A stretch of 64,000 nucleotides of DNA. Origin: Eriocheir sinensis. Its lineage: Eukaryota > Arthropoda > Malacostraca > Decapoda > Varunidae. Location of the stretch: assembly GCF_024679095.1 (NCBI RefSeq), contig NW_026110553.1:37224-101223 (forward strand), in the 5' to 3' direction. The notes under the pieces were generated by a model. The model did not search any database and had not been told where the DNA came from. It was given only the letters and a program-made list of their open reading frames with translations. Below are positions 6,236-38,130 of the stretch, in pieces; within the stretch, counting starts at the first letter, position 1, and every line of letters starts with the position of its first letter. The translations under genes were made by a program, and so were the position numbers.

Positions 6236-6734
6236 TGCCCCGCCCACCGTCTCCCCGCAGCCAGTCCAATACACTTCCAGTCAGGCCTTCCCAGTACATT
6301 GTATCACCCGGCTTCTGGCTGAACACAATCCCACTCACGTCAGTTACCGTACCCAAGCAAACACTGTGCATGAAGCCTAACTGTTGGTGTAGGTTATACG
6401 AGCGGAAAGGATTGATCTGAGCTCCTAAACGTCATTTTATTGTTGTGTCTGAAGGAGTTGTCGTATAGCTGGCATCGCCCTCCCTGGCCCGCTAGATTCA
6501 ACTAAGGCCCGTTCTCCCTTTTTAGGGGGTAAATCCTTCATCATCAACTAAGGCCGCCTCTCTTTTCCTTCATTTCTTACGTTATAGGCGTGATACATTT
6601 GTTCTCCAGCAGTCGTAAGGAAGGTACAGGCATAGGACAGTAGGTGGAGGTCTTCCCATGGCCGTAGACAGCTTATAAAGTGATAAATAAACATTTATAC
6701 AGCCAGATCGAATAGGCAGGGAGGGGGGTGGGGT
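6236..6734. other. Unassigned; contains an outlying copy of the ~170-bp repeat
   Basis: No gene is recognised. The segment 6580-6710 is a diverged single copy of the array unit at 5255-6235 (gcgtgatacat..., gtggaggtcttcccat). The rest shows nothing. Confidence 0.5.
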
Positions 6735-7152
6735 CGCACTCTTCGGCAGGGACAATCTAAGTGTGTCATTAACAACTTAATCAAGGAAGATAGGCGTCAA
6801 GATATAGGAATGTGTGTAATTGGGGATTTCAATGATAGGAACATAGAGTGGGATACTTTATCCGGAGACCAAGAGGCACAGGATTTGTTAGATGTGATAC
6901 AGGATAGTTTCCTTAAGCAGTTAATTAGAACACCAACGAGGGAAGAAAATATTTTGGATTTGTCGTTAACTAATAGAGAGGACATAATAAGCAACATTGA
7001 GGTTGGGGATTCATTAGGTAACAGTGATCATAAGGAAATTAGATTTAATATTAAATGGGAGGATAGAGTAAGCAGTAACAACACATTAATACCTGACTTC
7101 AGGAAGGCAGACTATGAGGGGTTAAGAAATCAGCTGCAGAAGCTTAGGGGAG
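6735..7152 (+). pseudogene. CR1-type non-LTR retrotransposon ORF2, endonuclease C-terminal part (5' piece)
   Basis: The open frame through 6810-7152 encodes the C-terminal half of an apurinic-type endonuclease domain. Visible motifs are GDFNDRNIEWD (the GDFN block), ILDLSLTN, and LGNSDHKEIRFN, whose SDH triplet carries the catalytic histidine region. A DFRKADYEGLR linker follows; it closely resembles the segment between endonuclease and reverse transcriptase in CR1-clade elements. The N-terminal endonuclease half is missing. The frame is interrupted at 7152 by the LTR retrotransposon and resumes after 11863. In an intact element this domain nicks the target DNA to start reverse transcription. 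Here it is a truncated, split fragment. Confidence 0.85.
7148..7152 (+). other. Left target-site duplication GGGAG of the LTR element
   Basis: GGGAG immediately precedes the left LTR and is repeated at 11859-11863 immediately after the right LTR. Five-bp duplications are normal for Ty3/gypsy-type integrases. Confidence 0.9.
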
Positions 7153-7560
7153 TGTAGAGGCCAGTAGGAGCACAACAAACACTTTTCTCTGCAGTGCAGT
7201 TTATTTGCAGTGCAATTAAATTGAGTAACAGCAATAAGTAACAAGGGCTGCGCCAGTCGTCAGTAGCCAGTGGTCCGCTTCCCCTGATTCGCCGCCGCCG
7301 TCGTAGGCCTTCCCAACAGCGGGCACTCCGGACTCCGGCACACAGCCGACGGTGCCTCGCACAGAACCTCGCCCCGGGCGGTATGAAGGCCTTCTTTGCG
7401 GGGCCTCCTTCTGGTGTGCTTGCTGGCGGCCAACTGCCCCTCTCATAATCGGGAACAGCTTCTTCACCTCGCTTCATTCCTCAGGCCTTTCCGCTGCTAA
7501 CACAGCGCGCATGACTCACATCACTTAAATGAGAAGAGGCTATTAATTACACAAACGAGC

Positions 7561-7648
<88 letters not shown>

Positions 7649-7689
7649 TTAATCACCCAACAAACCATTCTCACTTCCACACACATACA
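7153..7689 (-). mobile_element. 3' LTR (minus orientation) of the gypsy-like element
   Basis: The 537-bp sequence begins TGTAGAGGCCAG and ends ACACATACA on the plus strand (TG...CA ends) and is matched by 11358-11858. It contains a long (CT)n tract at 7563-7645, which is shorter in the partner. The rest of the two LTRs differs by only a few substitutions and indels by eye, suggesting a fairly recent insertion. Confidence 0.93.
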
Positions 7690-7698
7690 CTCCCCCCT
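7690..7698 (-). other. Polypurine tract
   Basis: Read on the minus strand this is AGGGGGGAG, directly abutting the start of the 3' LTR. This is the expected plus-strand DNA primer site of an LTR retroelement and fixes its orientation as minus. Confidence 0.85.
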
Positions 7699-7704
7699 GA
7701 TATA

Positions 7705-9837
7705 TCAATCACATACTAAACACTGTCGCCGTCTTGCTATCCTGGTCGAACGTCTTAATGGTTGTTCTGCCTCCCCTTCCTCGATAACCCTCCGTTGACC
7801 CACGTCGGCATCATCTTGAACAGGGAACGCCATTATCAATTCATCGTCACTACTTTCAGAGGCGATAATATCTTGCTCTTGTCGTTGACGGCTCGAACTA
7901 CGCTTCCGGAGATCCTTGACATGCCGCGGAATTTGATCCACCTCCGCAACTTGATCAGAAACAATACTGGTCACCGTGCCCTCCTTATATCGGTCGTCGC
8001 AGCGTCCTCTTGGCGGCTTCACCCATACATTATCTCCCATTTGGTAAGGATTGTGTTGTACCCTGACATTTCTTTCTATTTCAGCCTCTCCTCGCACTCT
8101 CATGGCGTAATTGTAGATTACATTTCCTGGAGCGGAAGACTGCGTACAATCATCAGAAGGCGTGATGTTGTATAGATACACTGCCTCTGCTATCGAACAG
8201 CCTTTCCTTGCCGCAATCACCTTCACAGTACGGTGGCAGCGTTCCACTATACCATTACCAGATGGGGCATAGGCTCCCCTATAGTGGACACGCACATTCC
8301 ACCGCAAGGCGAACTGAGAAAACAACTTACTGCGAAAAGCTGTGTCGTTATCCGTCAGTAGCTCCTGCGGCGCCCCACGTTCAAAGAACACCGCTTCCAG
8401 GTGCTTAATGACGCAATCACTTGTCTGAAGCTGAAGCAGGCGCCAAATGGTGAAGCGTGATGGTCCACAGTCTATTAGTGAGAGATAAGACTGTCCTCTG
8501 CAGTGCGTGATGTCCATCCCGACTCTTTGCCAAATGCCAGTCACGGACAAGTCACCAGTATGCCACTTCGCAGGCGCCGGGTCGATAGATAGGCATTCCT
8601 GACAGGTGGTAGTAATTGAGCGCACCTGTCCCCTGGTTACTGCCGGGTTGACCCTCCTCGCGAAGTAAAGAGTCCGTCTCACACCAGGATGACCTCGAGA
8701 ATGGTGAACGTCTGCCACTAACTGATCAATAGCAGGGTCTGCAGCAATGGCACAAACTGACGGTGACAGATCGACTGTTGATGATGCTTTCAGCCATCGC
8801 TGGGGCACACGTGTGAGGGAGTCTGCTTTGTTCTCCGCGGACGATATTCGCGTGATGGAAAGCGATAGACCGCACTCCTTGACCAGGGACACAATGATGC
8901 CAAGGCGTCTACGTATCAACATTTCGCTAGCCGCTTTCGTTTTCAGCCTTGCACGACCAGTGAGGGCATCCTCTACCCACCGACACACAGTGGTAGAGTC
9001 ACTCATTAATTCTACAGTTTTCATCTGCCAAGCTAGTGCAAGGTTGAGTCCCTTGATGACTGAATCGAGTTCTGCCATATTTATATGATCCGTGCCTTCA
9101 GGGCGAAGCCAGCTAGCGTCTTCGATGATGCACCCGTCCACCTCAACCGCTGCGCCTAGAGCCAGGGAACTTGCATCCACCCACACTCTTGCAGTGTCTC
9201 CTTTAACATCCCACCTGCCTCGAGCTGGGTCGTCCTTCTTTACCCTAGTCAAGATCTCTGTTAGCAGCATCCGTGGTTCCTCACCAACAACGGCATCATC
9301 CCATCCTCGCGTTGAAAGATTAACCCTTCTAATCACATAGGCAGATGCCACTCTCAACCATCCGCACACTGGAAAGTGACCAACCAATTTTCCACAGTAG
9401 GAAAACACACTTCTTCGAGTGAGCTGTTCAGGTAATTCGCTTATCCTGCCATCACGACCCCAAGCCAGTGAGTGATGCTCCCCCCAAACCTTCAAGCCCA
9501 ACACTCTTGCTCCTTCAGCCACACGCTCGGGGTTTTTGGCAGCCAGTCCATATTGTTCAAGATGTTCTAAAACACGGTTGGCAGCAACGATGTCTTCGTT
9601 TACTATGATGTCGTCAATGTAGGCCGACGTTCCCCGCCTCACATCAGGATCTTGTGATAACACGCTGTTGAGCACTGCTTTCATCACTAATGGAGCAACA
9701 TTCAGGCCGAATCCCAGACGAGTAAGGCAATACCTGCGGCCTTTATACATCACAGTCTGATATGGCCAGAGAGATTCGTGAATGTGTATTTGTAGGTAGG
9801 CCTTCTTTAGATCTACAATAGACACGTTTGTTCCTTT
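7705..9837 (-). CDS. pol: pol, downstream part: reverse transcriptase (C-terminal), RNase H, integrase
   Basis: This is a frame of about 706 residues counted from the GTG codon at 9825; it remains open back to the TGA at 9838-9840. Reverse transcriptase shows SIVDLKKAY (catalytic Asp near residue 5) and the YIDD box at 69-72. RNase H follows with Asp in VWVDAS (~217), Glu in MAELDS (~252), Asp in LMSDST (~276) and Asp in ENKADS (~334). Integrase has an HHCC zinc finger (His 374-379, Cys 408/411) and a D-D-35-E core: Asp 438, Asp 492, Glu 528. A basic C-terminal tail follows. These enzymes copy the RNA genome into DNA and insert it. The TGA just upstream separates this part from the N-terminal reverse transcriptase segment in the same frame, so the protein is not made as one piece unless the stop is read through. 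Confidence 0.92.
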   Translation of the reverse strand, partial: KGTNVSIVDLKKAYLQIHIHESLWPYQTVMYKGRRYCLTRLGFGLNVAPLVMKAVLNSVLSQDPDVRRGTSAYIDDIIVNEDIVAANRVLEHLEQYGLAAKNPERVAEGARVLGLKVWGEHHSLAWGRDGRISELPEQLTRRSVFSYCGKLVGHFPVCGWLRVASAYVIRRVNLSTRGWDDAVVGEEPRMLLTEILTRVKKDDPARGRWDVKGDTARVWVDASSLALGAAVEVDGCIIEDASWLRPEGTDHINMAELDSVIKGLNLALAWQMKTVELMSDSTTVCRWVEDALTGRARLKTKAASEMLIRRRLGIIVSLVKECGLSLSITRISSAENKADSLTRVPQRWLKASSTVDLSPSVCAIAADPAIDQLVADVHHSRGHPGVRRTLYFARRVNPAVTRGQVRSITTTCQECLSIDPAPAKWHTGDLSVTGIWQRVGMDITHCRGQSYLSLIDCGPSRFTIWRLLQLQTSDCVIKHLEAVFFERGAPQELLTDNDTAFRSKLFSQFALRWNVRVHYRGAYAPSGNGIVERCHRTVKVIAARKGCSIAEAVYLYNITPSDDCTQSSAPGNVIYNYAMRVRGEAEIERNVRVQHNPYQMGDNVWVKPPRGRCDDRYKEGTVTSIVSDQVAEVDQIPRHVKDLRKRSSSRQRQEQDIIASESSDDELIMAFPVQDDADVGQRRVIEEGEAEQPLRRSTRIARRRQCLVCD

Positions 9838-9840
9838 CCT

Positions 9841-10711
9841 TCACCATTCCCGTATTTTGTCTGCACAGACATCCGCATCCGCTGTAAAGGTGTCTATGTA
9901 GGAATTCAGCTCCCTGAAATCGAGTACGGGCCTCACCTTCCCATTGTTGTGTTGTATAACAACCATCAAAGGGATGAGTCCCTTTGCTGGACCGTGTTTT
10001 CTTTCGTCGAATGGCACCATCCATTTGTCTTCTATCCACTTATCGATTTCTTCTTCATACTGTGCTCTCACTCCGCGGGGGACTCCGTATGCCTCCATCT
10101 GGTTTTTCAGAAGGCCTGGCTCTTTACCGTTTGACCACTTCCATGCCGCTGTCCAGGAGCGACTTGCTGTGTCGTAAGATGCAGTGAAGTCTCGTTCCTC
10201 TATCACTTTACCAACCGCTGCGGCACACACATTTGTATTTGCTGTCCCAAACCGCACTTCACGTCCATTGATGAAAACACCACCGAGTGCAGTAATGCCG
10301 TTCATTCCTAGTATAAACGTGAATCCTAGTGGTTTGACACTAACAACAATCACTTCAACCTCGGCAACAGCACCGTTACCCAATTGGATTCTTACAACAC
10401 CTGTGCCCTCACACTGCTGCTCCTTCCCACTAATATTCAGGATGGACACTGCCTCTTTCTTCCAATTCTTACAGCAGGAGACATGAGCCACGCATCGAGA
10501 GCAGCCAGTATCAACCAATACGCTGTGCTTGTCCCCGTTCAATGTCACTACTGTAGTTGGTAGCGCCTCTTTCACTAATCTTTCTGAGGAGAGACTGGCG
10601 CTGACGCCTCCCCTCCACTCGCGTTTCCCGAGCACGCTGATGAAACATGGCCCCAAACACCACAACGATAGCACCGCACACGGCGTCTCTGAGAAAGTCC
10701 TCTGTTGGTGC
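9841..10711 (-). CDS. pro-pol: pro and start of pol: aspartic protease and N-terminal reverse transcriptase
   Basis: The frame is open from 10776 to a TGA at 9838-9840. The real product probably begins by -1 frameshifting near the end of gag (around 10,580), because homology starts with a ...TVVTLNGDKHSVLVDTGCS segment. The VDTGCS active site of a retroviral-type aspartic protease lies at about 10,504-10,515. A linker follows, then the reverse transcriptase fingers with KVRPVLDFRELN. The reverse transcriptase continues in the same frame past the TGA into 9837-7705. The stop could have come from a CGA arginine codon by CpG decay; this is inference. Confidence 0.85.
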
Positions 10712-11342
10712 CTGCTTCCCCACGACGAGCCAAGCAGTTCCTGGCAAAGTGGTTCACGCCGTCGCAGATGTAACATCGTTGATTGGAGGCGCTGATCTGT
10801 TTACCGTCTCCTTGGGCGGCAAGACATGCTTCCTGAATACCAGAAGTCCCATCATCTCGTATGACAGCCCTCGCTCGAGTTAGGAGCTGTCCAATGTCCA
10901 GTGCCTCCATTCGTGATCCAGCTCTAAGTAACTGCCGAACACTCTCTGGAAGGCCAGAAACAAATGCACAAGCCAGGCCCTTCTCAGACATCCCGCCAAA
11001 CAGAGAAGAGAGGCGCCGCAGCTCAGCTAGAAAGACGTCAGGACTTTCACCTGGTGTCAATTTTCGGCTGACGAACTGTTCATAGGCTGCATAGGGGTCC
11101 GCGGCAAATGCGGCCAGAAGTGCTTCCTTTATCTTCTCTTTCTTCTTCTTTTCCTCTTCTCCTAATTGAAGATAAACAGCAAATGCACCCCCAGAAAGGC
11201 GAAGAGGGATCACACTGGCCACATCATCAATTTTCCGTAACTTGCAGACGAGTTCTAGTTTTTCTATCCATTCCACCACAGACGCAGTGCCACTGCCGTC
11301 ATACTGTGGTATCCATTTCAGGTCGAGGGAGTGCTCAGACAT
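10575..11342 (-). CDS. gag: gag: nucleocapsid-type polyprotein with two CCHC zinc knuckles
   Basis: The probable start is the ATG at 11340-11342, giving MSEHSLDLKWIPQYDGSG; the frame runs upstream into the LTR, but that part has no homology. The central region (WIEKLELVCKL, PYAAYEQF, GESPDVFLAELRRL) resembles the retrotransposon gag capsid region. The C-terminus has two zinc knuckles of form C-x2-C-x4-H-x4-C, CYICDGVNHFARNC and CYRCGVWGHVSSAC. The protein packages the element's RNA. The pro-pol frame overlaps its 3' end and is in the -1 frame relative to gag, consistent with programmed frameshifting. I did not find a textbook slippery heptamer. Confidence 0.9.
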   Translation of the reverse strand: MSEHSLDLKWIPQYDGSGTASVVEWIEKLELVCKLRKIDDVASVIPLRLSGGAFAVYLQLGEEEKKKKEKIKEALLAAFAADPYAAYEQFVSRKLTPGESPDVFLAELRRLSSLFGGMSEKGLACAFVSGLPESVRQLLRAGSRMEALDIGQLLTRARAVIRDDGTSGIQEACLAAQGDGKQISASNQRCYICDGVNHFARNCLARRGEAGTNRGLSQRRRVRCYRCGVWGHVSSACSGNASGGEASAPVSPQKD

Positions 11343-11357
11343 AATGCCTAGATAGCT
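11343..11357 (-). promoter_or_regulatory. Very short leader between 5' LTR and gag; candidate atypical primer-binding site
   Basis: Only about 15 nt separate the 5' LTR from the gag ATG. Read on the minus strand it starts AGCTATCTAGGC, not the usual TGG of a site complementary to a tRNA 3' end. Its complement, GCCTAGATAGCT, resembles the first 12 nt of many tRNAs (GCCxxGATAGCT). The element may therefore prime from an internal or 5' tRNA fragment. This is speculative. Confidence 0.35.
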
Positions 11358-11758
11358 TGTAGAGGCCAGTAGGAGCACAACAAACACTTTTCTCTGCAGT
11401 GCAGTTTATTCGCAGTGCAATTAAATTGAGTAACAGCAATAAGTAACAAGGGCTGCGCCAGTCGTCAGTAGCCAGTGGTCCGCTTCCCTGATTCGCCGCC
11501 GCCGTCGTAGGCCTTCCCAACAGCGGGCACCCGGACTCCGGCACACAGCCGACGGTGCCTCGCACAGAACCTCGCCCCGGGCGGTATGAAGGCCTTCTTT
11601 GCGGGCCTCCTTCTGGTGTGCTTGGCGGCCAACTGCCCTCTCATAATCGGGAACAGCTTCTTCACCTCGCTTCATTCCTCAGGCCTTTCCGCTGCTAACA
11701 CAGCGCGCATGACTCACATCACTTAAATGAGAAGAGACTATTAATTACACAAACGAGC

Positions 11759-11821
<63 letters not shown>

Positions 11822-11858
11822 TCACCCAACAAACCATTCTCACTTCCACACACATACA
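11358..11858 (-). mobile_element. 5' LTR (minus orientation) of the gypsy-like element
   Basis: This 501-bp partner of 7153-7689 has the same TG...CA ends and a shorter (CT)n tract at about 11,762-11,818. Transcription of the element should start in this LTR on the minus strand. Confidence 0.93.
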
Positions 11859-13632: not shown

Positions 13633-13638
13633 TGTGTA
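13633..13638 (+). other. Left 6-bp target-site duplication TGTGTA of the Polinton-like element
   Basis: TGTGTA directly precedes the AG-initiated inverted repeat and is repeated at 26,707-26,712 directly after its CT end. Six-bp duplications are characteristic of Polinton/Maverick integration. Confidence 0.85.
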
Positions 13639-13924
13639 AGTAGTAACAAATGTACGGAAGTGGGGGTAATTTGGAAGTGGGGGGGACTGGAAGTGGGGTT
13701 GGGGGTCAGCAGGGGGTTACAGGAGTGGGGGTAATTTGCAGGGGTTACGGAAGAGGGGTATCTGGACCCCCCCCACCCCCACCCACCCATCTCTTTTACC
13801 TTTTCACCCCCCCCCGCACCCCCCCCCCGCACCCCCACTCGGACGAGCGTACGGAAGGGAGAAGGTGCCGGGGGGTGGGGTGCCCAGCAGGGAGGGCGGG
13901 GGGGGGGTGACGGGAGTAGGGATA

Positions 13925-14418
13925 CTTGAAGGGTTAAGATAAGATCTATCTTTGACACTCGAATGACCACGAGATTATAATCACGGAAAAGGTTAAGGAC
14001 ATTAGGTTAATGACCAGGCTGAAATATGAATTTACTCTCTAATGCAAGTCCGAAAATAAAATAAAAAATCGCCATTGAACGTAAGACTCGATAAATTATT
14101 TAAGTTTTTGCTGGATGTATTGTATCATTATCTTCTTATTTCTCATTTCTCAACTTGTTTCTTCTTATTTCTTTCCTCAACTTATATATATTTTTTTTTA
14201 CTCCGGTTATTTGGTGCCATCTAACCCTAAACACTGCAGCACCAAGTCTTTTTTTTTCTGATTTTGCATTAATTAATGTCTTATATCTCATTTCTTAACT
14301 TCTTTCTTATTATTTCTTTTCTCAACTTGCATTTCTTTATATTTTCTGCATGCTCTTCGATGTCATATGACCTTAGGCGTTGCCGCATCGAATTTACCTT
14401 TTTCCGTGAAAAAGGGAT

Positions 14419-14460
<42 letters not shown>

Positions 14461-15120
14461 CCATTCCCTCCGATTCTTGAGAAATCTGCGGCTAGCTCGA
14501 AATTTTGTGGGCCATCTTTTTTAGCCGATTATATGCTCCGAAGCGGAATTTAGTGAGGATTCTTATGGTATCTTCAAATTCCTCATACGTCTATTAGTTC
14601 CCGAGTTACACCGAGAAAACTGATTTTTTTCTCTCGGTAGGGGTGCCCAGCAGGGGGGGAGCGGCGGTGACGGGAGAAGGGATACTTGAAGGGTTAAGAT
14701 AAGATCTTTCTTTGACCCTCGAATGACCACGAGATTGTAATCACGGAAAAGGTTAAGGACATTAGGTTAATGACCAGGCTGAAATATGAATTTACTCTCT
14801 AATGCAAGTCCGAAAATAAAATAAAAAATCGCCATTGAACGTAAGACTCGATAAATTATTTAAGTTTTTGCTGGATGTATTGTATCATTATCTTCTTATT
14901 TCTCATTTCTCAACTTGTTTCTTCTTATTTCTTTCCTCAACTTATATATATTTTTTTTTACTCCGGTTATTTGGTGCCATCTAACCCTAAACACTGCAGC
15001 ACCAAGTCTTTTTTTTTCTGATTTTGCATTAATTAATGTCTTATATCTCATTTCTTAACTTCGATGTCATATGACCTTAGACGTTGCCGCATCGAATTTA
15101 CCTTTTCCGTGAAAAGGGAT

Positions 15121-15156
<36 letters not shown>

Positions 15157-16279
15157 CCATTCCCTCCGATTCTTGAGAAATCTGCGGCTAGCTCGAAATT
15201 TTGTGGGCCATCTTTTAGCCGATTATATGCTCAAGCGGAATTTAGTGAGGATTCTTATGGTATCTTCAAATTCCTCATACGTCTATTAGTTCCCGAGTTA
15301 CACCGAGAAAACTGAATTTTTTTTCTCTCGTCAGAGTAGCTTAACAAATAAAAATCACTCATTAATTAATGTCTTATATCTCATTTCTTAACATATTTCT
15401 TCTTATTTCTTTTCTCAACTTGCATTTCTTTATATTTTCTGCCTGCTCTTCGGTGTCATATGACCTTAGACGTTGCCGCATCGAGTTTACCTTTTTCCGT
15501 GAAAAGGGATCATGTGTGTGTGTGTGTGTGTGTTCCATTCCCTTCGATTCTTGAGTAATCTGCGGCTAGCTCGAAATTTTGTGGGCCATCTTTTTTAGTC
15601 GATTATATGCTCCGAAGCGGAATTTAGTGAGGATTCTTATGGTATCTTCAAATTCCTCATACGTCTATTAGTTCCCGAGTTACACCGAGAAAACTGATTT
15701 TTTCTATAGTCAGAGTATCAAAACAAATAAAATCACTCATTAATTAATGTCTTATATTTCATTTCTTAACTTATTTCTTCTTATTTCTTTTCTCAACTTG
15801 CATTTCTTTATATTTTCTGCCTGCTCTTCGGTGTCATATGACCTTAGACGTTGCTGCATCGAGTTTACCTTTTCCGTGAAAAGGGATCATGTGTGTGTGT
15901 GTGTGTGTGTGTGTGGGTGTGTTCGAGTCCCCTCCGATTCTTGAGAAATCTGCGGCTAGCTCGAAATTTTGTGGGCCATCTTTTTTAGCCGATTATATGC
16001 TCCGAAGCGGAATTTAGTGAGGATTCTTATGGTATCTTCAAATTCCTCATACGTCTATTAGTTCCCGAGTTACACCGAGAAAACTGATTTTTTCTCTCGG
16101 CAGAGTAGCATAACAAATAAAAATCACTCATTAATTAATGTCTTATATTTCATTTCTTAACTTATTTCGTCTTATTTCTTTTCTCAACTTGCATTTCTTT
16201 ATATTTTCTGCCTGCTCTTCGGTGTCATATGACCTTAGACGTTGCCGCATCGAGTTTACTTTTTTCCGTGAAAAAGGGA

Positions 16280-16332
<53 letters not shown>

Positions 16333-16520
16333 CCATTCCCCTCTGATTCTTGAGAAATCTGCTGCTTGCTCAAAATTTTGTGGGCCAACTTTTTTAGCCG
16401 ATTATATGCTCCGAAGCGGAATTTAGTGAGGATTCTTATGGTATCTTCAAATTCCTCATGCGTCTATTAGTTCCCGAGTTACACCGAGAAAACTGAATGT
16501 TATTCTCTCGTCAGAGTATC
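13925..16520 (+). repeat. Subterminal tandem repeats with (GT)n, left arm
   Basis: A ~385-bp unit starts near 'attaattaatgtcttatat', includes 'catatgaccttagacgttgc', a (GT)n tract after 'aaaagggatca', and 'attagttcccgagttacacc'. Copies begin near 14,270, 15,029 (shortened), 15,362, 15,736 and 16,131. Two copies of a second block of about 340 bp ('gaatgaccacgagatt...') precede the first two. The (GT)n lengths differ between copies. Short repeated ORFs (MSYISFLN...) come from the unit and are not a gene family. Confidence 0.88.
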
Positions 16521-17030
16521 CTAACAAATAAAAATCGCTCAGAGCTCCTCATCTACGTTCCTTAGAAAGATTGCCATATGTTACTATTAAGAAACTTATC
16601 CCAACAACTGCAAATTTGACGCACTTTCATCGAAAACTTAATTTTTAATAATTTTTTATTTACTTTTATGGCGCGTTTCGCGTCATCGTCCGCCAGAACC
16701 TTTTACCCTTGATGACATGAAATGCGTCATCGTGCGCGAGAGGGTTAAATAAGTCAGATTTATCTCAAATTCACTGTCTGGGCAGACAAATATTCGGAAA
16801 AGAGAAGGCAAACCAGTTTGTAGATATATATAAATATGCCGTATATTCACGTCCTTATGGATATCTTCTTGTTGATTAGGGTTTAAATACTCCTGAATCC
16901 CTACAGTTTCGCTCAAACATTGTTGGAGAGCCTCCCAGATGAACGCGTATTCCAATGGTGAACTCCAGGAAAAAGGAACTCTTACACGTTCTATACTCCC
17001 AACATAACGAACCCTATGGTTTAAGCTCTC
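16521..17030. other. Arm segment without recognised gene
   Basis: The segment includes an AT-rich stretch with 'cgcgtttcgcgtcatcgtcc' and 'gaaatgcgtcatcgtgcgcg', mirrored at ~23,560-23,660; a related sequence recurs at 55.74-55.86 kb. The minus ORF 16,683-16,955 (90 residues) shows no motif I know. Confidence 0.5.
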
Positions 17031-17335
17031 AGCTACTTCTGATCTTACTCTTAAGCCTTTGCAGTTACTTTCTTAAACCATCGAAGCCCGCCTTCCTGAA
17101 GTCAGGTATTAAGTCTTGTTTCTGCTGACTCTATCCTCCCATTTAATATTAAATTTAATTTCCTTATGATCACTGTTACCTAATGAACCCCCAACCTCAA
17201 TGTTGCTTATTATGTCCTCTTTATTAGTTAACAACAAATCCAAAATATTTTCTTCCTCCTTCGCACTGTTTTGTATATAGAACGAACTTACATTAGCTGA
17301 ACCCACACTCCTGGAAGAAGCTAAAATTTTCTAAA
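17031..17335 (-). pseudogene. Captured CR1 endonuclease fragment, left arm
   Basis: The minus strand encodes EEENILDLLLTNKEDIISN and LGNSDHKEIKFNIKWED, a close relative of the CR1 copy at 6.9-7.1 kb. A stop and a broken linker with RSEVAESL follow. The same fragment lies in the right arm at 23,020-23,290 on the plus strand. It directly abuts the polymerase remnant and may be what truncates the polymerase N-terminus. Confidence 0.8.
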
Positions 17336-17344
17336 GGCTACAAT

Positions 17345-19590
17345 AAAGTCAATATGACCGATGAAGATACGGCACGTCACAATGAACAAACTCACTGTCT
17401 TCTCTGTAAATACGGGTTTTAAAAGGTAAAGGAGTAAAACATCATGACCATGAAAAATCAGGAAACAATTACATTGAAGCTTATTGTAATAGATGCAACC
17501 TTCAAATGAAAAATATCACAAATTGCAGCGTACTCTCATTGCACATTATGCGGATTACGACATGACGTTAATCCCGCGTGAATTAACGCTACCTGGCTTT
17601 GAAAATCAAACTAAGACCAAAACATTCAGTTCAGAAATACCATGAAGTCATCATAAATGACTTGAGATTTATTGACACGTATGTCTTTATGTCTGGTTCA
17701 CTCGCGGCTTTAGCGAACCAATTCATCAGCACTGGGAACGAGCCCATGTGCACACAACAGATGTTGAAAGATGTGCCAGCACCTGCGTTACCATTATTGA
17801 TCAAGGGAAAGCAGGTTTTTTGTTATGACTATATGGACTCGATGGAACGACTTTCTGAGACACGTCTTCCATCCCGCGAAGATTTTTTTCAATTCGCTTC
17901 AAGAAGCAGAACTTTCCGAAAGTGATTATAAACATGCTCAGAATGTTTGGAAAGTAGCTGGATGTCAGAGCCTGATGGACTATTTGTTGCTTTATGTAAA
18001 AGTGGATGTTGGCCTTCTATGTGATGTCTTCCTAGAGGGAGAGGTATTTTGAAAACACAGTGGAGGTTGGATATTGTAAATTATGTTAGCCTGCCAGGAT
18101 TTGCCTATGACTCTTTTTGTTAAAAACACAGCAGGAATTAGAGATGCTTAGTAGCCCACACATATATCATTGCATTCAAACAAATGTGCGTGGGGCTACA
18201 CAAGTGTTGTGCGTCGTTTTGTACGCACCAATAACATCTACACGAACCCTCAGTTTAATCCAAAACATGATAGAAACACTTTCCTTTCATATCTTGACTT
18301 CAACAGTCTTTATCCCACTGTAATACAAGAGAAGTTACCATGTGGAGATATGAGAAAACTAGATGAGACAGAAATGCACTGGTTTTTGAGCGTGAGGGGC
18401 TAGGTCAATCAAGCAACCGATGGCGATTTTGGATACCTCATTCTGTGCAATACTGAGGCTGTCTCACGTGAAGTCATTGAGAAAACGGATGACCTCCCAC
18501 TGACCATCAGAAGACACAATATCATCAATAGAGATATATCGTCAGCCGCACACGAATGGTATGAAGAAGAAACCGTCCAGTACCGTGTAAGAACATAAAA
18601 CAGATTGGAACACATGTTGCTCAGGAGAAAATACTGTTTGCTCTGTCCTCCTTAAACTGCTATTCAACTAGGCCGGGTTGTTAAAAGTGCATGCTATTTA
18701 TATGTTTAATAAAGCACTTTCTTGCGGACTTCATTCAGGATAACATAGAAGCCCGCAAAGTGCTACTTGCCCTATCAAGAAAACTGCAATCAAGTGTATT
18801 TCAAACAGCATTTTGGTCGATACCTGATGAACGCGGCCAAATATAGTGAAGACATAGATATTGTCACCAACCGCGAAAAGTTTTTGAAGCTGGCCTGAAG
18901 TCCTTACTTTAAACGCGTTGTACCTCAATGATGGCCATGTAGTTGTAGTTCGCCATAAGAAATATTCACAGGCGAATCATCCAAACTACATTGGCTACTA
19001 CGTCCTAAAGCTGTCCAAGCTGCGACTATATGATTTCTTTTACAGTATCATGAAGGCTCATTACGGGGATCGGGCGAAACTAGTGTATTGTGACACTGAT
19101 TCCTTAATAACAGAAACTGAAACTCCTGATCTATTAACAGAGTACTCGCAGGAACCCTTTAAAAGCTATATAGACACAAGTAACTTTAGCTCCTCACATT
19201 CCTTGTACAACACAGACAACAAAGGCAAGCTCGGATTTCTCAAGTCTGAAGTGAGGGAAAGAACCATCTCAGAATTTGTAGGTGTAAGAACAAAGTGCTA
19301 CTCCATCCCCATGGCAGACAGTGACCGGTTGAGTTCAGCTAAGAGCGTTCCAAAGCTCATAAAGAAAAAAAATTGCTCATCAGCGATACAAAGACGTCCT
19401 ATTCCAGAAGCAAACATTTACCTTTGGCTATCAGGGATTCACAGTGCGTAATGGACGAATGAGTACAGTAAAATATCCCAAGAGAGGGATATCTGTAGTT
19501 CAGGACAAAAGACACTGCTTTAGCACTTGGAGTTACGACCTTACGGTCAACCCGATAATAATACAGGGGTAGAGGAGGAGTAGGAAGAGA
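17345..19590 (+). pseudogene. polB: Protein-primed type DNA polymerase B, left-arm copy (frameshifted)
   Basis: The segments, in order, are a cysteine/histidine finger (CLLCKYGF ... CNRCNLQ); exonuclease-side blocks LRFIDTYVFMSGSLAAL and YDYMDSMERLSETRLPS; NVWKVAGCQSLMDYLLLY; motif A SYLDFNSLYP near 18,290; motif B region KKTAIKCISNS-like near 18,780; and motif C YCDTDSL at 19,086-19,106. These match the family B polymerases of Polintons and adintovirus-like elements, which replicate linear DNA from a protein primer. Several frameshifts and stops break the frame (near 17,920, 18,050, 18,400, 18,600, 18,770 and 18,900). The N-terminus is missing compared with family members of about 1,000 or more residues. 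Confidence 0.85.
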
Positions 19591-19699
19591 AGGAAGCTGT
19601 AATCATAATTTGACAAAATACCAAAAAACATTGAGTTGGTTTGACTTGTTTATATGTCCTTTATCAAAAATGAATGAAAAAAAAACAATAATTGTCTTA

Positions 19700-19890
19700 A
19701 AATTTATTCGATTTGTGGAAACATGTAGACAAAACGCGTCTATGTTTCGATCTGGCTCATATAAAAAAAAAAAGACTCGCGAAATGTGCGCGGCGGCGGC
19801 ACCAGCGGGTCCTGCGGCGACATCATGCGACGACAGGATGCAACAGGATTGCGTGGGCTCAAGGGCGGGGGCGGGCGGCCCGGCAGCACG
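19700..19890 (+). other. GC-rich arm tip next to the palindrome centre
   Basis: After an A-rich tract at ~19,765, a GC-rich segment with 'gcgggtcctgcggcgacatc' leads to the edge of the unique centre. The right arm repeats it at 20,430-20,560 with G-run length differences. Its base composition differs sharply from the AT-rich polymerase next to it. Confidence 0.6.
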
Positions 19891-20429
19891 CTACCAAGTT
19901 ATTCTAAAAGAGAAATGAGACACTGGATTTGTCTCTACTATGAACCGGACATGATAGTGTTCTTAGATAGTTATGCTCTCGACCTCAAATTATACTCTGA
20001 TTATTTTAAATATATTGCTTACCCTGGGCTCAGGATATATAAAATGCATTTCGACTTCAAAGCACGCGAAGCGATGTGTGCGGGCTTATGTCGTGTACTT
20101 TGCCTACAATGTTTCACACTTGGGTGTAAGAGAAACTCTTGAAAAATTTGTATGGAGTTTTCCAAGACCGAATATTCGAGGAATGATGAACACGTGATGA
20201 GATTCGCTTACAGCAAGTTTATAATGCCCGTATGACATCAAACATTTAACACGTGTTCATAAAAAGTAAGTATTGACTTTATTGATTTTTCATATTGAAG
20301 TGTATTACATTCCATGAAGCTATTCTCAGCATAAATAATTTTCTAGTTCCTTTATAGAGGTTTGTATAACACGCTTAAATCAGTCTTCTGGCTCCATACA
20401 GGACCTCACTCGTCACCACCACTAGCCCC
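19891..20429. other. Unique centre (loop) of the palindrome
   Basis: About 540 bp are not duplicated between the arms. The left half holds the protease remnant (19,911-20,215). The right half (20,240-20,420) has no recognised coding sequence on either strand. Confidence 0.75.
19911..20215 (+). pseudogene. Adenain-like cysteine protease remnant
   Basis: The plus frame from about 19,914 gives RHWICLYYEPDMIVFLDSYA, with HW and LDSY matching the His and Asp/Glu regions of adenovirus-type (C5, Ulp1-fold) proteases found in Polintons. Near 20,060 the frame shifts; the next frame continues CVRAYVVYFAYNVSHLG, matching the region around the catalytic Cys (family pattern CGxYCxYF, here partly altered). 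The N-terminal part is absent and the frameshift makes it non-functional. It lies downstream of the left polymerase on the same strand. In intact elements this enzyme processes capsid precursors. Confidence 0.7.
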
Positions 20430-20759
20430 AGTGCTGCTGCCCGCCCCGCCCTGCCCCGCCCCGAGCCCACGCAATCCTGTCGCATCCTGTCGTCGCATGA
20501 TGTCGCCGCAGGACCCGCTGGCTGCCGCCGCGCACATTTCGCGAGTCTTTTTTTAAATTTTTTTATATGAGCCAGATCGAAACATAGACGCGTTTTGTCT
20601 ACATGTTTCCACAAATCGAATAAATTTTAAGACAATTATTGTTTTTTTCATTCATTTTTGATAAAGGACATATAAACAAGTCAAACCAACTCAATGTTTA
20701 TTGGAATTTGGTCAAATTATGATTACAGCTTCCTTCTCCTCCTCCTCCTCTACCCCTGT

Positions 20760-22960
20760 AGAATTATCGGATGACCGTAAGGTCGTAACTCCAAGGTGCT
20801 AAAGCAGTGTCTTTTGTCCTAAACTACAGATCTCTTGGGATATTTTACTGTACTCATTCGTCCATTACGCACTGTGAATCCCTGATAGCCAAAGGTAAAT
20901 GTTTGCTTCTGGAATAGGACGTCTTTGTATCGCTGATGAGCAATTTTTTTTTTCTTTATGAGCTTTGGAACGCTCTTAGCTGAACTCAACCGGTCACTGT
21001 CTGCCATGGGGATGGAGTAGCACTTTGTTCTTACACCTACAAATTCTGAGATGGTTCTTTCCCTCACTTCAGACTTGAGAAATCCGAGCTTGCCTTTGTT
21101 GTCTGTGTTGTACAAGGAATGTGAGGAGCTAAAGTTACTTGTGTCTATATAGCTTTTAAAGGGTTCCTGCGAGTACTCTGTTAATAGATCAGGAGTTTCA
21201 GTTTCTGTTATTAAGGAATCAGTGTCACAATACACTAGTTTCGCCCGATCCCCGTAATGAGCCTTCATGATACTGTAAAAGAAATCATATAGTCGCAGCT
21301 TGGACAGCTTTAGGACGTAGTAGCCAATGTAGTTTGGATGATTCGCCTGTGAATATTTCTTATGGCGAACTACAACTACATGACCATCATTGAGGGGTAC
21401 AACGCGTTTAAAGTAAGGACTTCGGGCCAGCTTCAAAAACTTTTCGCGGTTGGTGACAATATCTATGTCTTCACTATATTTGGCCGCGTTCATCAGGTAT
21501 CGACCAAAAATGCTGTTTGAAATACACTTGATTGCAGTTTTCTTGATAGTGCAAGTAGCACTTTTGCGGGCTTCTATGTTATCCTGAATGAAGTCCGCAA
21601 GAAAGTGCTTTTGCTTAAACATATAAATAGCATGCACTTTTTAACAACCCGGCCTAGTTGAATAGCAGTTTAAGGAGGGACAGAGCAAACAGTATTTTCT
21701 CCTGAGCAACATGTGTTCCAATCTGTTTTATGTTCTTACACGGTACTGGACGGTTTTCTTCATACCATTCGTGTGCGGCTGACGATATATCTCTATTGAT
21801 TATATTGTGTATTATGATGGTCAGTGTGAGGTCATCAGTTTTCTCAATTACTTCACGTGAGACAGCCTCAGTATTGCAGAGAATTAGGTATACAAAATCT
21901 AAATCTGTTTCTTGATTGACCTAGCCCCTCCCGCTCAAAAACCAGTGCATTTCTGTCTCATCTAGTTTTCATATCTCCACATGGTAACTTCTCTTGTATT
22001 ACAGTGGATAAAGACTGTTGAAGTCAAGATATGAAAGGAAAGTGTTTCTATCATGTTTTGGATTAAACTGAGGGTTCGTGTAGATGTTATTGGTGCGTAC
22101 AAAACGACGCATTAACACTTGTGTAGCCCCCACGCACATTTGTTTGAATGCAATGATATATGTGTGGCTACTAAGCATCTCTAATTCCTGCTGTGTTTTT
22201 AACAAAAAGAGTCATAGGCAAATCCTGGCAGGCTAACATAATTTACAATATCCAACCTCCACTGTGTTTTCAAAATACCTCTCCCCTCTAGGAAGACATC
22301 ACATAGAAGGCCAACATCCACTTTTACATAAAGCAACAAATAGTCCATCAGGCTCTGACATCCAGCTACTTTCCAAACATACTGATCAAGTTTATAATCA
22401 CATTCGGAAAGTTCTGATTCTTTAAGCGAATTGAAAAATCTTCGCGGGATGGAAGACGTGTCTCAGAAAGTCGTTCCATCGAGTCCATATAGTCATAACA
22501 AAAACCTGCTTTCCTTGATCAATAATGGTAACGCAGGTGCTGGCACATCTTTCAACATCTGTTGTGTGCACATGGGCTCGTTCCCAGTGCTGATGAATTG
22601 GTTCGCTAAAGCCGCGAGTGAACCAGACATAAAGACATACGTGTCAATAAATCTCAAGTCATTTATGATGACTTCATGGTATTTCTGAACTGAATGTTTT
22701 GGTCTTAGTTTGATTTTCAAAGCCAGGTAGCGTTAATTCACGCGGGATTAACGTCATGTCGTAATCCGCATAATGTGCAATGAGAGTACGCTGCAATTTG
22801 TGATTTTTTTCATTTGAAGGTTGCATCTATTACAATAAGCTTCAATGTAATTGTTTCCTGATTTTTCATGGTCATGATGTTTTACTCCTTTACCTTTTAA
22901 AACCCGTATTTACAGAGAAGACAGTGAGTTTGTTCATTGTGACGTGCCGTATCTTCATCG
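20760..22960 (-). pseudogene. polB: Protein-primed type DNA polymerase B, right-arm copy (better preserved)
   Basis: This is the inverted duplicate of the left copy. The palm and C-terminal part is open for 272 residues (21,637-20,819), including motif B (KKTAIKCISNSIFGRYL) and motif C YCDTDSL (YCDTD at 21,218-21,232). The motif A piece SYLDFNSLYP lies in a separate open stretch at 22,205-21,999, and the exonuclease-side block LRFIDTYVFMSGSLAAL at 22,720-22,493. Breaks remain between these stretches, so it is still a pseudogene. Several frame breaks of the left copy (for example near 18,770) are absent here, so the arms have diverged or been called differently since duplication. Confidence 0.85.
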
Positions 22961-22999
22961 GTCATATTGACTTTATTGTAGCCTTTAGAAAATTTTAGC

Positions 23000-23290
23000 T
23001 TCTTCCAGGAGTGTGGGTTCAGCTAATGTAAGTTCGTTCTATATACAAAACAGTGCGAAGGAGGGAAGAAAATATTTTGGATTTGTTGTTAACTAATAAA
23101 GAGGACATAATAAGCAACATTGAGGTTGGGGGTTCATTAGGTAACAGTGATCATAAGGAAATTAAATTTAATATTAAATGGGAGGATAGAGTCAGCAGAA
23201 ACAAGACTTAATACCTGACTTCAGGAAGGCGGGCTTCGATGGTTTAAGAAAGTAACTGCAAAGGCTTAAGAGAGTAAGATCAGAAGTAGC
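23000..23290 (+). pseudogene. Captured CR1 endonuclease fragment, right arm
   Basis: This is the mirror copy of 17,031-17,335: ILDLLLTNKEDIISN and LGNSDHKEIKFNIKWED on the plus strand, followed by a stop and the broken RSEVAESL linker. Confidence 0.8.
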
Positions 23291-23789
23291 TGAGAGCTTA
23301 AACCATAGGGTTCGTTATGTTGGGAGTATAGAACGTAAGAGTTCCTTTTCCTGGAGTTCACCATTGAATACGCGTTCATCTGGGAGGCTCTCCAACAATG
23401 TTTGAGCGAAACTGTAGGATTCAGGAGTATTTAAACCCTAATCAACAAGAAGATATCCATAAGGACGTGAATATACGGCATATTTATATATATCTACAAA
23501 CTGGTTTGCCTTCTTTTCCGAATATTTGTCTGCCCAGACAGTGAATTTGAGATAAATCTGACTTATTTAACCCTTCGCGCACGATGACGCATTTCATGTC
23601 ATCAAGGGTAAAAGGTTCTGAGGACGATGACGCGAAACGCGCCAGAAAAGTAAATAAAAAATTATTAAAAATTAAGTTTTCGATGAAAGTGCGTCAAATT
23701 TGCAGTTGTTGGGATAAGTTTCTTAATAGTAACATATGGCAATCTTTCTAAGGAACGTAGATGAGGAGCTCTGAGCGATTTTTATTTGT

Positions 23790-23980
23790 TAGGATACTCT
23801 GACGAGAGAATAACATTCAGTTTTCTCGGTGTAACTCGGGAACTAATAGACGCATGAGGAATTTGAAGATACCATAAGAATCCTCACTAAATTCCGCTTC
23901 GGAGCATATAATCGGCTAAAAAAGTTGGCCCACAAAATTTTGAGCAAGCAGCAGATTTCTCAAGAATCAGAGGGGAATGG

Positions 23981-24051
<71 letters not shown>

Positions 24052-24407
24052 TCCCTTTTTCACGGAAAAAAGTAAACTCGATGCGGCAACGTCTAAGGTC
24101 ATATGACACCGAAGAGCAGGCAGAAAATATAAAGAAATGCAAGTTGAGAAAAGAAATAAGACGAAATAAGTTAAGAAATGAAATATAAGACATTAATTAA
24201 TGAGTGATTTTTATTTGTTATGCTACTCTGCCGAGAGAAAAAATCAGTTTTCTCGGTGTAACTCGGGAACTAATAGACGTATGAGGAATTTGAAGATACC
24301 ATAAGAATCCTCACTAAATTCCGCTTCGGAGCATATAATCGGCTAAAAAAGATGGCCCACAAAATTTCGAGCTAGCCGCAGATTTCTCAAGAATCGGAGG
24401 GGAATGG

Positions 24408-24453
<46 letters not shown>

Positions 24454-25194
24454 ATCCCTTTTTCACGGAAAAAGGTAAACTCGATGCGGCAACGTCTAAG
24501 GTCATATGACACCGAAGAGCAGGCAGAAAATATAAAGAAATGCAAGTTGAGAAAAGAAATAAGAAGAAATAAGTTAAGAAATGAAATATAAGACATTAAT
24601 TAATGAGTGATTTTTATTTGTTATGCTACTCTGACGAGAGAAAAAAAAATCAGTTTTCTCGGTGTAACTCGGGAACTAATAGACGTATGAGGAATTTGAA
24701 GATACCATAAGAATCCTCACTAAATTCCGCTTCGGAGCATATAATCGACTAAAAAAGATGGCCCACAAAATTTCGAGCTAGCCGCAGATTACTCAAGAAT
24801 CGGAGGGGAATGGAACACACACACACACACACACACATGATCCCTTTTTCACGGAAAAAGGTAAACTCGATGCGGCAACGTCTAAGGTCATATGACACCG
24901 AAGAGCAGGCAGAAAATATAAAGAAATGCAAGTTGAGAAAAGAAATAAGAAGAAATATGTTAAGAAATGAGATATAAGACATTAATTAATGAGTTTATTT
25001 TATTTGTTAAGCTACTCTTACGAGAGAAAAAATTCAGTTTTCTCGGTGTAACTCGGGAACTAATAGACGTATGAGGAATTTGAAGATACCATAAGAATCC
25101 TCACTAAATTCCGCTTCGAGCATATAATCGGCTAAAAAGATGGCCCACAAAATTTCGAGCTAGCCGCAGATTTCTCAAGAATCGGAGGGAATGG

Positions 25195-25231
<37 letters not shown>

Positions 25232-25890
25232 TACGATCCCTTTTTCACGGAAAAGGTAAATTGATGCGGCAACGTCTAAGGTCATATGACATCTAAGTTA
25301 AGAAATGAGATATAAGACATTAATTAATGCAAAATCAGAAAAAAAAAGACTTGGTGCTGCAGTGTTTAGGGTTAGATGGCACCAAATAACCGGAGTAAAA
25401 AAAAATATATATAAGTTGAGGAAAGAAATAAGAAGAAACAAGTTGAGAAAAGAGAAATAAGAAGATAATGATACAAAACATCCAGCAAAACTTAAATAAT
25501 TTATCGAGTCTTACGTTCAATGGCGATTTTTATTTTATTTTCGGACTTGCATTAGAGAGTAAATTCATATTTCAGCCTGGTCATTAACCTAATGTCCTTA
25601 ACCTTTCCGTGATTACAATCTCGTGGTCATTCGAGGGTCAAAGAAAGATCTAATCTTAACCCTTCAAGTATCCCTTCTCCGTCACCCCCCTCCCTCCCTG
25701 CTGGGCACCCCTACCGAGAGAAAAAAATCAGTTTTCACGGTGTAACTCGGGAACTAATAGACGTATGAGGAATTTGAAGATACCATAAGAATCCTCACTA
25801 AATTCCGCTTCGGAGCATATAATCGGCTAAAAAAGATGGCCCACAAAATTTCGAGCTAGCCGCAGATTTCTCAAGAATCGGAGGGAATGG

Positions 25891-25929
<39 letters not shown>

Positions 25930-26440
25930 TACGATCCCTTTTTCACGGAAAAGGTAAATTGATGCGGCAACGCCTAAGGTCATATGACATCGAAGAGCAT
26001 GCAGAAAATATAAAGAAATGCAAGTTGAGAAAAGAAATAATAAGAAAGAAGTTAAGAAATGAGATATAAGACATTAATTAATGCAAAATCAGAAAAAAAA
26101 AAGACTTGGTGCTGCAGTGTTTAGGGTTAGATGGCACCAAATAACCGGAGTAAAAAAATATATATGTAAGTTGAGGAAAGAAATAAGAAGAAACAAGTTA
26201 AGAAATGAGAAATAAGAAGATAATGATACAATACATCCAGCAAAACTTAAATAAGTTATCGAGTCTTACGTTCAATGGCGATTTTTTATTTTATTTTCGG
26301 ACTTGCATTAGAGAGTAAATTCATATTTCAGCCTGGTCATTAACCTAATGTCCTTAACCTTTTCCGTGATTATAATCTCGTGGTCATTCGAGGGTCAAAG
26401 AAAGATCTTATATTAACCCTTCAAGTATCCCTTCTCCTCA
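23790..26440 (-). repeat. Subterminal tandem repeats with (CA)n, right arm
   Basis: This is the mirror of the left array. Copies of the ~385-bp unit run from about 23,790, 24,196, 24,601, 24,986 and 25,721; copies of the second block lie at about 25,336-25,720 and 26,086-26,440. The (CA)n tracts (for example 23,982-24,049) differ in length from their left-arm partners. Confidence 0.88.
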
Positions 26441-26706
26441 CCCCCCCTCCCTCCCTGTTGGCACCCCTACCCTGTCACCTTCTCGCTTCCGTACGCTAGT
26501 CCGAGGGGTGGGGGGGGGATGAGGGGGTGAAAGGTAAAAGAGATGGGTGTGGAGGGGGGTTAGAGGGGGGTCCAGATACCCCTCTTCCGTAACCCCCTGC
26601 AAATTACCCCCACTCCTGTAACCCCTGCTGACCGCTGACCCCCAACCCCCACTTCCAGTCCCCCCCACTTCCAAATTACCCCCACTTCCGTACATTTGTT
26701 ACTACT

Positions 26707-26712
26707 TGTGTA
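26707..26712 (+). other. Right target-site duplication TGTGTA
   Basis: This is the partner of 13,633-13,638. From here to 27,420 the sequence is single-copy looking and I see no gene in it. Confidence 0.85.
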
Positions 26713-36284: not shown

Positions 36285-37232
36285 TCAGCCACTCAGCCCT
36301 TGGAAACTGCAAATAGCTTAAATTCATGTGAGGATCTAACCTAACTCCCAGCTTAACTCAGCCCTTGGAAACTGCAAATAGCTTAAATTCATGCAAGGAT
36401 CTAACCTAACTCCCAGCTTAACTCAGCCCTTGGAAACTGCAAATAGCTTAAATTCATGTGAGGATCTAACCTAACTCCCAGCTCAACTCAGCCCATGGAA
36501 ACTGGAAATAGCTTAAATTCATGTGAGGATCTAACCTAACTCCCAGCTTAACTCAGCCCTTGGAAACTGCAAATAGCTTAAATTCATGCAAGGATCTAAC
36601 CTAACTCCCAGCTTAACTCAGCCCTTGGAAACTGCAAATAGCTTAAATTCATGTGAGGATCTAACCTAACTCCCAGCTCAACTCAGCCCTTGGAAACTGG
36701 AAATAGCTTAAATTCATGTGAGGATCTAACCTAACTCCCAGCTTAACTCAGCCCTTGGAAACTGGAAATAGCTTAAATTCATGTGAGGATCTAACCTAAC
36801 TCCCAGCTTAACTCAGCCCTTGGAAACTGGAAATAGCTTAAATTCATGCGAGGATCTAACCTAACTCCCAGCTTAACTCAGCCCTTGGAAACTGGAAATA
36901 GCTTAAATTCATGCAAGGATCTAACCTAACTCCCAGCTTAACTCAGCCCTTGGAAACTGGAAATAGCTTAAATTCATGTGAGGATCTAACCTAACTCCCA
37001 GCTTAACTCAGCCCTTGGAAACTGGAAATAGCTTAAATTCATGTGAGGATCTAACCTAACTCCCAGCTTAACTCAGCCCTTGGAAACTGGAAATAGCTTA
37101 AATTCATGCGAGGATCTAACCTAACTCCCAGCTCAACTCAGCCCTTGGAAACTGGAAATAGCTTAAATTCATGCGAGGATCTAACCTAACTCCCAGCTTA
37201 ACTCAGCCCTTGGAAACTGGAAATAGCTTAAC
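36285..37232 (+). repeat. 65-bp minisatellite, ~14 copies
   Basis: The unit 'tggaaactgcaaatagctta' ... 'gatctaacctaactcccagc' ... repeats with an exact 65-bp period (starts at 36,301, 36,366, 36,431 and so on). A few positions vary in linked fashion (gcaaa/ggaaa; catgtg/catgca/catgcg; gcttaa/gctcaa). The sequence of variants suggests multi-unit duplication events. Confidence 0.93.
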
Positions 37233-38130
37233 TTGTGAGGTTCTGTCTACGTATATCTATATTAATTTTATCTATAGCTTATCTTGGTCATATTCTGCTT
37301 AGATGCTTATCACTGACTTAATAACAATGAGTCTATTCTTATGTGAGGAGAACTGTGTGTAGGAAGGGATTGAGTGAGGGAGTCTAGCCATCTGCAAAGG
37401 ACTTGTATTCAGAATTTGCTATATATTTAACACTTGAAAGCTTATAATTAGTACCGGCAAAAATTCAAGGGGCTAAACCATCACATTGAAAGAGGGAGGG
37501 TTGACCTAGGAGAATGAATTAGCTCCCCAGCCACCCACAAACTATTTATATAGAGGGAATTTGACTGTTTGGAAAAGTCCCGTGCTGTCAGAATTTACTA
37601 TGTATTTACTGTTGAAAGTTCAGACTTGTTTATAATCCAAGTTCCTGAGCATATCAATGAACAAGGATTGACCGAGAAGAATTAATGATGTCCCCAAACA
37701 GTATTTATCAGGATCAAGTAAGTGATTAATTACCCAACACAGCACTCGGATATATTAATACTGACTATGTATCCAAGTTCCAAGGCATCAGATTGAGTGA
37801 GGCCTACAGAGATTAATTACACCCCCAAAGGAAGAATTTTAATTGCTAAATCCAGTTGGTATAGAAAGAGAGAGGATCTAGATTAGGTTGAATATGGAAT
37901 GACTATATAGGCCTACACAGAATCACAAAAGTAGCCTATAAGTATTGCAAGTAATTTATAAGAACAGTTCATAAGGAAGAATTTTAATGTCTAAATCCAG
38001 TTGGTATAGAGAGAGAGAGGATTGAGGTTAGGTTGAGTATTATGGAATGTAGGCCTACACAGAGTCACAAAAGTAGCCTATAAGTATTGCAAGTAATTTA
38101 TAAGTGGGGAAGGATTGGTCAACAACCTCA
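37233..38130. other. Unassigned; one ~145-bp tandem duplication
   Basis: At 37,828-38,102 a block with 'ctaaatccagttggtataga' and 'cacaaaagtagcctataagt' occurs twice. The remaining AT-rich sequence shows no gene. Confidence 0.6.

Follow-up and report, generated by a model that had tools for sequence, protein, structure and literature searches.

Polintons or Mavericks (polintoviruses, adintoviruses) are flanked by 6-bp target-site duplications, have AG...CT ends, and encode a family-B DNA polymerase of the protein-primed type (PolB); the copying of their DNA has been inferred mostly from adenovirus and phage relatives. Foldback elements such as FB and Galileo have very long inverted repeats, internal arrays, and a small centre. 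Adeno-associated virus (AAV) is a parvovirus and is not protein-primed. Its snap-back genomes are described in the available text of one report as self-complementary, one-ended molecules, some with a loop, which replicate with helper functions (PMC8235507). For the invertron-type linear mitochondrial plasmids pAL2-1 and kalilo, the accessible part of another report mentions replication intermediates of "racquet" or "panhandle" form and, where integration has taken place, long inverted repeats (PMC1864894). As far as those texts go, these two are by analogy the nearest printed mechanisms for the element described here, which occupies positions 13,639–26,706 of a 64,000-nucleotide stretch of Eriocheir sinensis DNA (contig NW_026110553.1; "the window" below means this whole stretch). 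In the literature searched, which included PMC6431247 and PMC4642659 and had most subscription papers outside its coverage, no palindromic or foldback Polinton family was found.

The family represented by this element is a foldback, non-autonomous Polinton family. It shares with Polintons the 6-bp duplications, the AG...CT ends, and PolB, and the sampled copies with short terminal inverted repeats (short-TIR copies) in the same genome also carry integrase and ATPase genes. An earlier note on this DNA had assigned it to Polintons from these ends, the duplication, and PolB, which was supported. The palindrome family differs in that only remnants of PolB and of a protease-like gene and an ATPase fragment were recognised, and in that its inverted repeats span nearly the whole element, whereas the best repeat blocks of the sampled short-TIR copies are 98–243 bp. 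Its very long inverted repeats, internal arrays, and small centre are similar to those of FB and Galileo as generally described, but its ends, duplication, and gene remnants are those of a Polinton, and comparison with a parent-type copy resident in the genome makes its founding junction legible. The self-complementary form resembles that of AAV snap-back genomes, which constitute no chromosomal family. Unlike those of the palindrome, the inverted repeats of pAL2-1 and kalilo are flanking mitochondrial DNA, and the accessible part of that source associates no integrase function with the plasmids (PMC1864894).

Alignment confirmed the near-palindrome that the earlier note had described, with AGTAGT...ACTACT ends, arms of approximately 6.25 kb, and TGTGTA on both sides. 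When the left half was compared by BLASTN with the reverse-complemented right half, 13,637–19,887 paired with 26,707–20,435 at 96.3% identity (6,335 columns, with 89 mismatches and 72 gap openings), and a global alignment of the arms under different settings gave 134 mismatches and 60 indel events. The AGTAGT and ACTACT ends mark the limit of the palindromy; the 6-bp duplication lies directly outside, and the flanks beyond it differ. A unique centre was also present, though its size was 547 bp and not the 540 bp previously given, and self-comparison found only short chance matches to it elsewhere in the window. The inverted repeats make up most of the element in the window copy and in the sampled palindromic copies, which is a foldback-type architecture.

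The family was examined in an assembly of 1.77 Gb in 2158 contigs. Exact matches numbered 838 (430 + 408) for the 19-bp end, 103 (43 + 60) for the fold-back junction between arm and centre, and 182 (78 + 104) for the same site in its unfolded form, with 0 for every control (the reversed pattern in the case of the end). The junction matches are pattern matches with haplotypes not separated, a few loci contain two of them, and the exact counts miss diverged copies, as e10 and e28 differ in the pattern and e45 is absent from the list. A first look with the centre DNA gave 457 candidates, of which 40 were scored, yielding 41 matches at 98–100% identity, 40 of them essentially full length. A sample was then defined among 100 listed places of the end (contigs C1 to C5) as every + end followed by a − end at most 27 kb apart; this gave 30 pairs, excluded the 40 places having no such partner, and was fetched in pieces covering the ends and some middles. 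The centre lay between inverted arms in nine of the 30 pairs, all of them besides the window copy. These core copies measured 10.1, 11.6, 12.0, 13.0, 10.8, 12.4, 8.8, 10.6, and 12.2 kb; one arm was partly deleted in at least three of them (e10, e26, and e39), and the centre of e18 had an internal gap. Six further pairs (e12, e14, e24, e43, e47, and e54) contained an inverted repeat of at least 1.9 kb in any register, with the core deleted, rearranged, or unread. Four were short-TIR Polintons of 14.5–23.8 kb, with no fragment of a long interspersed nuclear element (LINE) in the pieces read, eight were 4.4–7.4 kb, and three were approximately 2.95 kb. Perfect 6-bp duplications flanked 28 of the 30 pairs, including eight of the nine core copies, which had eight different hexamers (CGTCTC, AACCTT, CTCGTT, AGTGTT, CACACA, CTCTTC, CCCACC, and TCTAGT); the core copy without one was L022/L023. 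The window-type 19-mer ends were also found on all four short-TIR copies. The search of the same genome for the end, which the earlier note had proposed, hence detected both a full-type element (integrase, ATPase, and a weak capsid match) and other palindromic copies. The palindrome appears to have spread to roughly a hundred places, typically as copies of 10–13 kb.

Several sampled pairs deserve separate mention. L049, L064, and L065, of approximately 2.95 kb each, have family ends, perfect 6-bp duplications, and a LINE fragment with no PolB match, and as judged from these features they may be regarded as a compact non-autonomous subfamily. The 26.6-kb pair L054/L055 (G000 C5:10410270-10436905) is a probable composite and has palindromic-type outer arms, a full-Polinton-like PolB in one arm, and the unfolded protease site within; e54 is probably composite because its right arm is full-Polinton-like and an unfolded-site match lies inside. 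In L043/L044, two fold-back junction matches lie approximately 300 bp apart in opposite orientation, representing a rearranged core.

One short-TIR copy (L016/L036/L017) was of the parent type, being 14.7 kb long with a best terminal repeat block of 98 bp and flanking hexamers that are offset and not identical. Its PolB forms a 917-aa open stretch (PF03175, 7.8e-13), and its other open reading frames (ORFs) matched an rve integrase (2.1e-8), a Pox_A32-type ATPase (1.9e-6), and Capsid_N (0.022, below its cut-off). Past PolB, a 155-aa protease-like ORF runs on the opposite strand and has a HW...DSY...CGAY pattern, which we take to resemble adenain-type proteases. Profiles, a PDB search, and predicted folds gave no support for this naming (mean pLDDT of 46.5 and 38.1 for the protease pieces), and a protein search with the centre ORF gave no matches. 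Collinearity of the palindrome with this copy extends from PolB via the G-rich tract into the loop and was obtained as two overlapping alignment blocks (78% over 432 columns and 93% over 478 columns), with a short duplication between them in the parent-type copy. Where the loop ends on its far side, the sequence of the parent-type copy continues into the protease-like ORF, while that of the palindrome doubles back and re-enters its G-rich tract in complementary form. The turn point lies inside this ORF, where a complementarity of approximately 2 nt is visible. Such a loop, collinear with a short-TIR Polinton and broken inside a gene, bears out the earlier proposal of an inverted duplication of the snap-back form. 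Descent of the palindrome from one founder would be the simplest account, because the junction was at the same place in all copies where it was printed. These sequence comparisons show that the PolB end of a resident Polinton, in a defective derivative, was duplicated in inverted orientation.

From the end inwards, the left arm is composed of units of approximately 390 bp, an ATPase fragment, a LINE piece, the 42-bp repeat, and the PolB remnant. The ATPase fragment is interrupted by a stop and a frame change, and 64 of its residues form a stretch that shares 91% identity with the resident ATPase (E 1.9e-36). The captured LINE piece of approximately 205 bp is 90–91% identical to the window LINE at 6,935–7,153 and lacks the 3' end; the parent-type LINE ORF (6687–7157) matched PF14529 at 5.3e-11. 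The longest PolB piece of the window element (273 aa, right arm) matched a PHROG DNA polymerase at 4.5e-5 and retrieved 15 proteins at E ≤0.001, of which five carry PF03175 and two are annotated in Eriocheir sinensis (82 and 86% identity). Pfam gave only below-cut-off matches for pieces of the window element, and the longest PolB frame in the fetched pieces of core copies was 278 aa, some frames being cut by piece ends. The protein-primed family-B polymerase is hence represented in the palindrome by remnants alone. No profile match to an rve integrase, packaging ATPase, or capsid was obtained among the scanned ORF pieces of the element, some short ORFs lying outside the scan, and the arm aligned to the short-TIR pieces only at its end, along the PolB side, and over a 276-bp fragment of the ATPase gene. 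The palindrome is a derivative and no autonomous Polinton member. A 1-bp PolB deletion was present in both arms of all eight core copies readable at that site in both arms (e10, e18, e20, e22, e28, e41, e45, and the window copy) and in none of the four short-TIR copies, and the LINE fragment was present in both arms of the core copies where both were readable. The founder was probably already defective, and probably no intact replicating genome, because this deletion and the LINE fragment are common to both arms and an ATPase fragment is present besides in the window arm. Scans of viral contigs for close relatives and for the element end found none, another such scan gave a single distant locus, phage tblastn returned nothing useful, and a third protein search retrieved two fragments.

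The likeness of the arms was evaluated at 33 informative PolB-side sites in 11 copies, among which were the window copy, the unclean palindromes e14 and e54, and e26 with five comparable sites. For arms within a copy, 30 of the 291 comparisons showed a difference (0.103), the corresponding proportion between copies was 0.26, and none of 5000 random re-pairings gave a value as low as that observed within copies. The arms of one copy are much more alike on average than the arms of different copies. Substitutions present in both arms of one copy and in no other compared arm were found for e45 (five), e10 and e41 (two each), and e28 and the window copy (one each). The number of 42-bp repeat units (1 or 4) agreed between the arms in all nine copies with those states, e54 included, and the spacer of this repeat agreed in e14 (970/969 bp).

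The best explanation, in which we have fairly good confidence as a whole, is that the window element belongs to a non-autonomous ("satellite") Polinton family of high copy number in which each unit is near-palindromic, and that this family was founded by snap-back and mobilised in trans. An already defective founder would have folded back once, and the palindrome would then have been amplified. In protein-primed replication by strand displacement, a strand would have folded back with its 3' end on its own G-rich tract, at the approximately 2-nt complementarity, and this end would have copied back to the 5' end of the strand, generating a hairpin with a 547-nt loop. Replication would open this hairpin into a palindrome with two identical ends, for which full Polintons would supply integrase and polymerase in trans. 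The likeness of the arms would be kept by hairpin passage of new copies or by gene conversion. A stronger version, a self-priming-hairpin satellite parasitic on full Polintons, in which both arms are made from one strand in each cycle, is conceivable and rather doubtful.

The serious rival, over which we favour snap-back, is an inverted duplication within the chromosome. A break in an integrated defective copy would be followed by invasion of the other terminal repeat by one end and copying of the left arm inwards, then by rejoining at the protease gene with both outer duplications kept, and by later mobilisation. This origin would produce an identical final anatomy, one-side loop collinearity included, the terminal repeats would supply the required homology, and the arms contain scars of a chromosomal type, that is, the ATPase fragment and, in both arms, the LINE fragment without its 3' end. 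It however requires a long copied tract and a separate rejoining, and alone gives no account of the arm likeness in copies at many sites, so that we regard it as somewhat unlikely.

Several points weigh against the favoured explanation, in which snap-back and trans-mobilisation are steps that we infer. A decayed founder with filler-like ATPase and LINE fragments fits chromosomal repair equally well, and the remaining three short-TIR copies have PolB frames of 475, 213, and 124 aa in the pieces read, broken or cut. In five of the 11 copies (e10, e20, e22, e28, and e54), at least one arm resembles some arm of a different copy more closely than its partner does. The 42-bp repeat spacer of e41 differs between its arms (91/139 bp), some copies have unlike arms (e14 and e54), and array lengths differ between the arms in several. 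A PolB_N tree, the alignment of which was disturbed by indels, paired the arms in some copies only. Assembly or polishing could also partly impose the arm likeness.

The account given in the earlier note, that integration trapped a single defective palindromic genome, would suit the anatomy of the window copy alone, but it is contradicted by the core in nine of the 30 sampled pairs and by the 103 exact junctions genome-wide, and is very improbable. An assembly or chimeric-read artefact is equally improbable for the palindrome, since the palindromy stops at the element ends with a duplication and the junction recurs at many loci with other duplications. The make-up of the differences between the window arms is nevertheless error-like, and a part of them may still be attributable to such an artefact. 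Outside the outer 420 columns, 38 transitions, 65 transversions, and many 1–2-bp homopolymer indels were counted. Among 48 PolB-side substitutions, many of them clustered, the right arm has 30 private ones (21 transversions) and the left arm five (all transversions). One cluster at 18,393–18,523 (right-arm partner at approximately 21,800–21,930) contains 15 substitutions, of which 13 are C>A or G>T changes when the left arm is compared with the right and most are private to the window copy; the cluster may reflect damage, error-prone synthesis, or consensus noise. Short homopolymer gaps likewise occur in the long terminal repeat (LTR) pair of a retroelement in the window, and many of the arm differences may be consensus noise. 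Dating of the window copy from its arm divergence was dropped, since private, clustered, transversion-heavy substitutions may be such noise. A reading of the diverged outer 300 bp as an old terminal repeat was also dropped, since the G-rich inner end is diverged too. Two abutting opposite insertions, suggested by inverted arms around a unique centre, are the least probable account, because the centre is unmatched elsewhere in the window and contiguous with the arm in a short-TIR Polinton, and the junction occurs at many places.

With parent-type Polintons beside it in one genome, the palindrome family preserves a fold-back event that can be read to the exact base, and long palindromes are carried at many sites of an animal genome. 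The roughly hundred natural replicates offer a measure of information transfer from arm to arm and may let Polinton replication be tested. The family also suggests a defective-interfering partner for Polintons. Of the 2261 21-mers in the left-arm PolB remnant, 621 have exact matches in the five short-TIR pieces used for comparison. If the hairpin-satellite reading is true, transcription across the palindrome would give a long PolB hairpin RNA, which could interfere with the helper.

Table 1. Features of the palindromic element in the window (positions on the forward strand; approximate values are marked ~).
Feature	Position	Strand	Basis
Left target-site duplication TGTGTA	13633..13638	none	Alignment of ends
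Left arm	13639..19887	+	BLASTN and arm alignment
Repeat region of left arm, ~390-bp units and (TG)n tracts	14267..16541	+	
3' fragment of Polinton packaging ATPase gene, left arm	16745..17004	+	Match to resident ATPase
Captured LINE endonuclease fragment, left arm	17048..17256	-	Match to window LINE
Single unit of 42-bp tandem repeat (4 units in several other copies)	17257..17299	+	Cross-copy comparison
PolB remnant, left arm, 5' truncated, frames broken	17300..19580	+	
Post-PolB and G+C-rich inner end of left arm, collinear with short-TIR Polinton	19600..19887	+	
Unique centre (loop), putative fragment of adenain-like protease gene	19888..20434	+	Motif resemblance
Coding parts of loop	19,888-20,142, then shifted frame to ~20,197	+	
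Right arm, inverted copy of left arm	20435..26706	-	BLASTN and arm alignment
PolB remnant, right arm	20744..23020	-	
Captured LINE fragment, right arm	23064..23272	+	
ATPase fragment, right-arm counterpart	~23,318-23,570	-	Placed via arm alignment
Right target-site duplication TGTGTA	26707..26712	none	Alignment of ends

The window contains other repetitive elements. An LTR retroelement at 7153–11858 with rve, RVT, and aspartyl-protease matches lies inside a LINE whose sequence appears to continue beyond 11,858, and the LTRs of the retroelement are near-identical, with two substitutions, short gaps, and a (CT)n length difference. A Tc1/mariner-type transposase fragment was found at 45819–46496 on the − strand (HTH_Tnp_Tc3_2, 4.2e-11), and self-comparison detected tandem arrays at 36291–37244 with a period of approximately 65 bp and at 63082–64000 with a period of approximately 58 bp.

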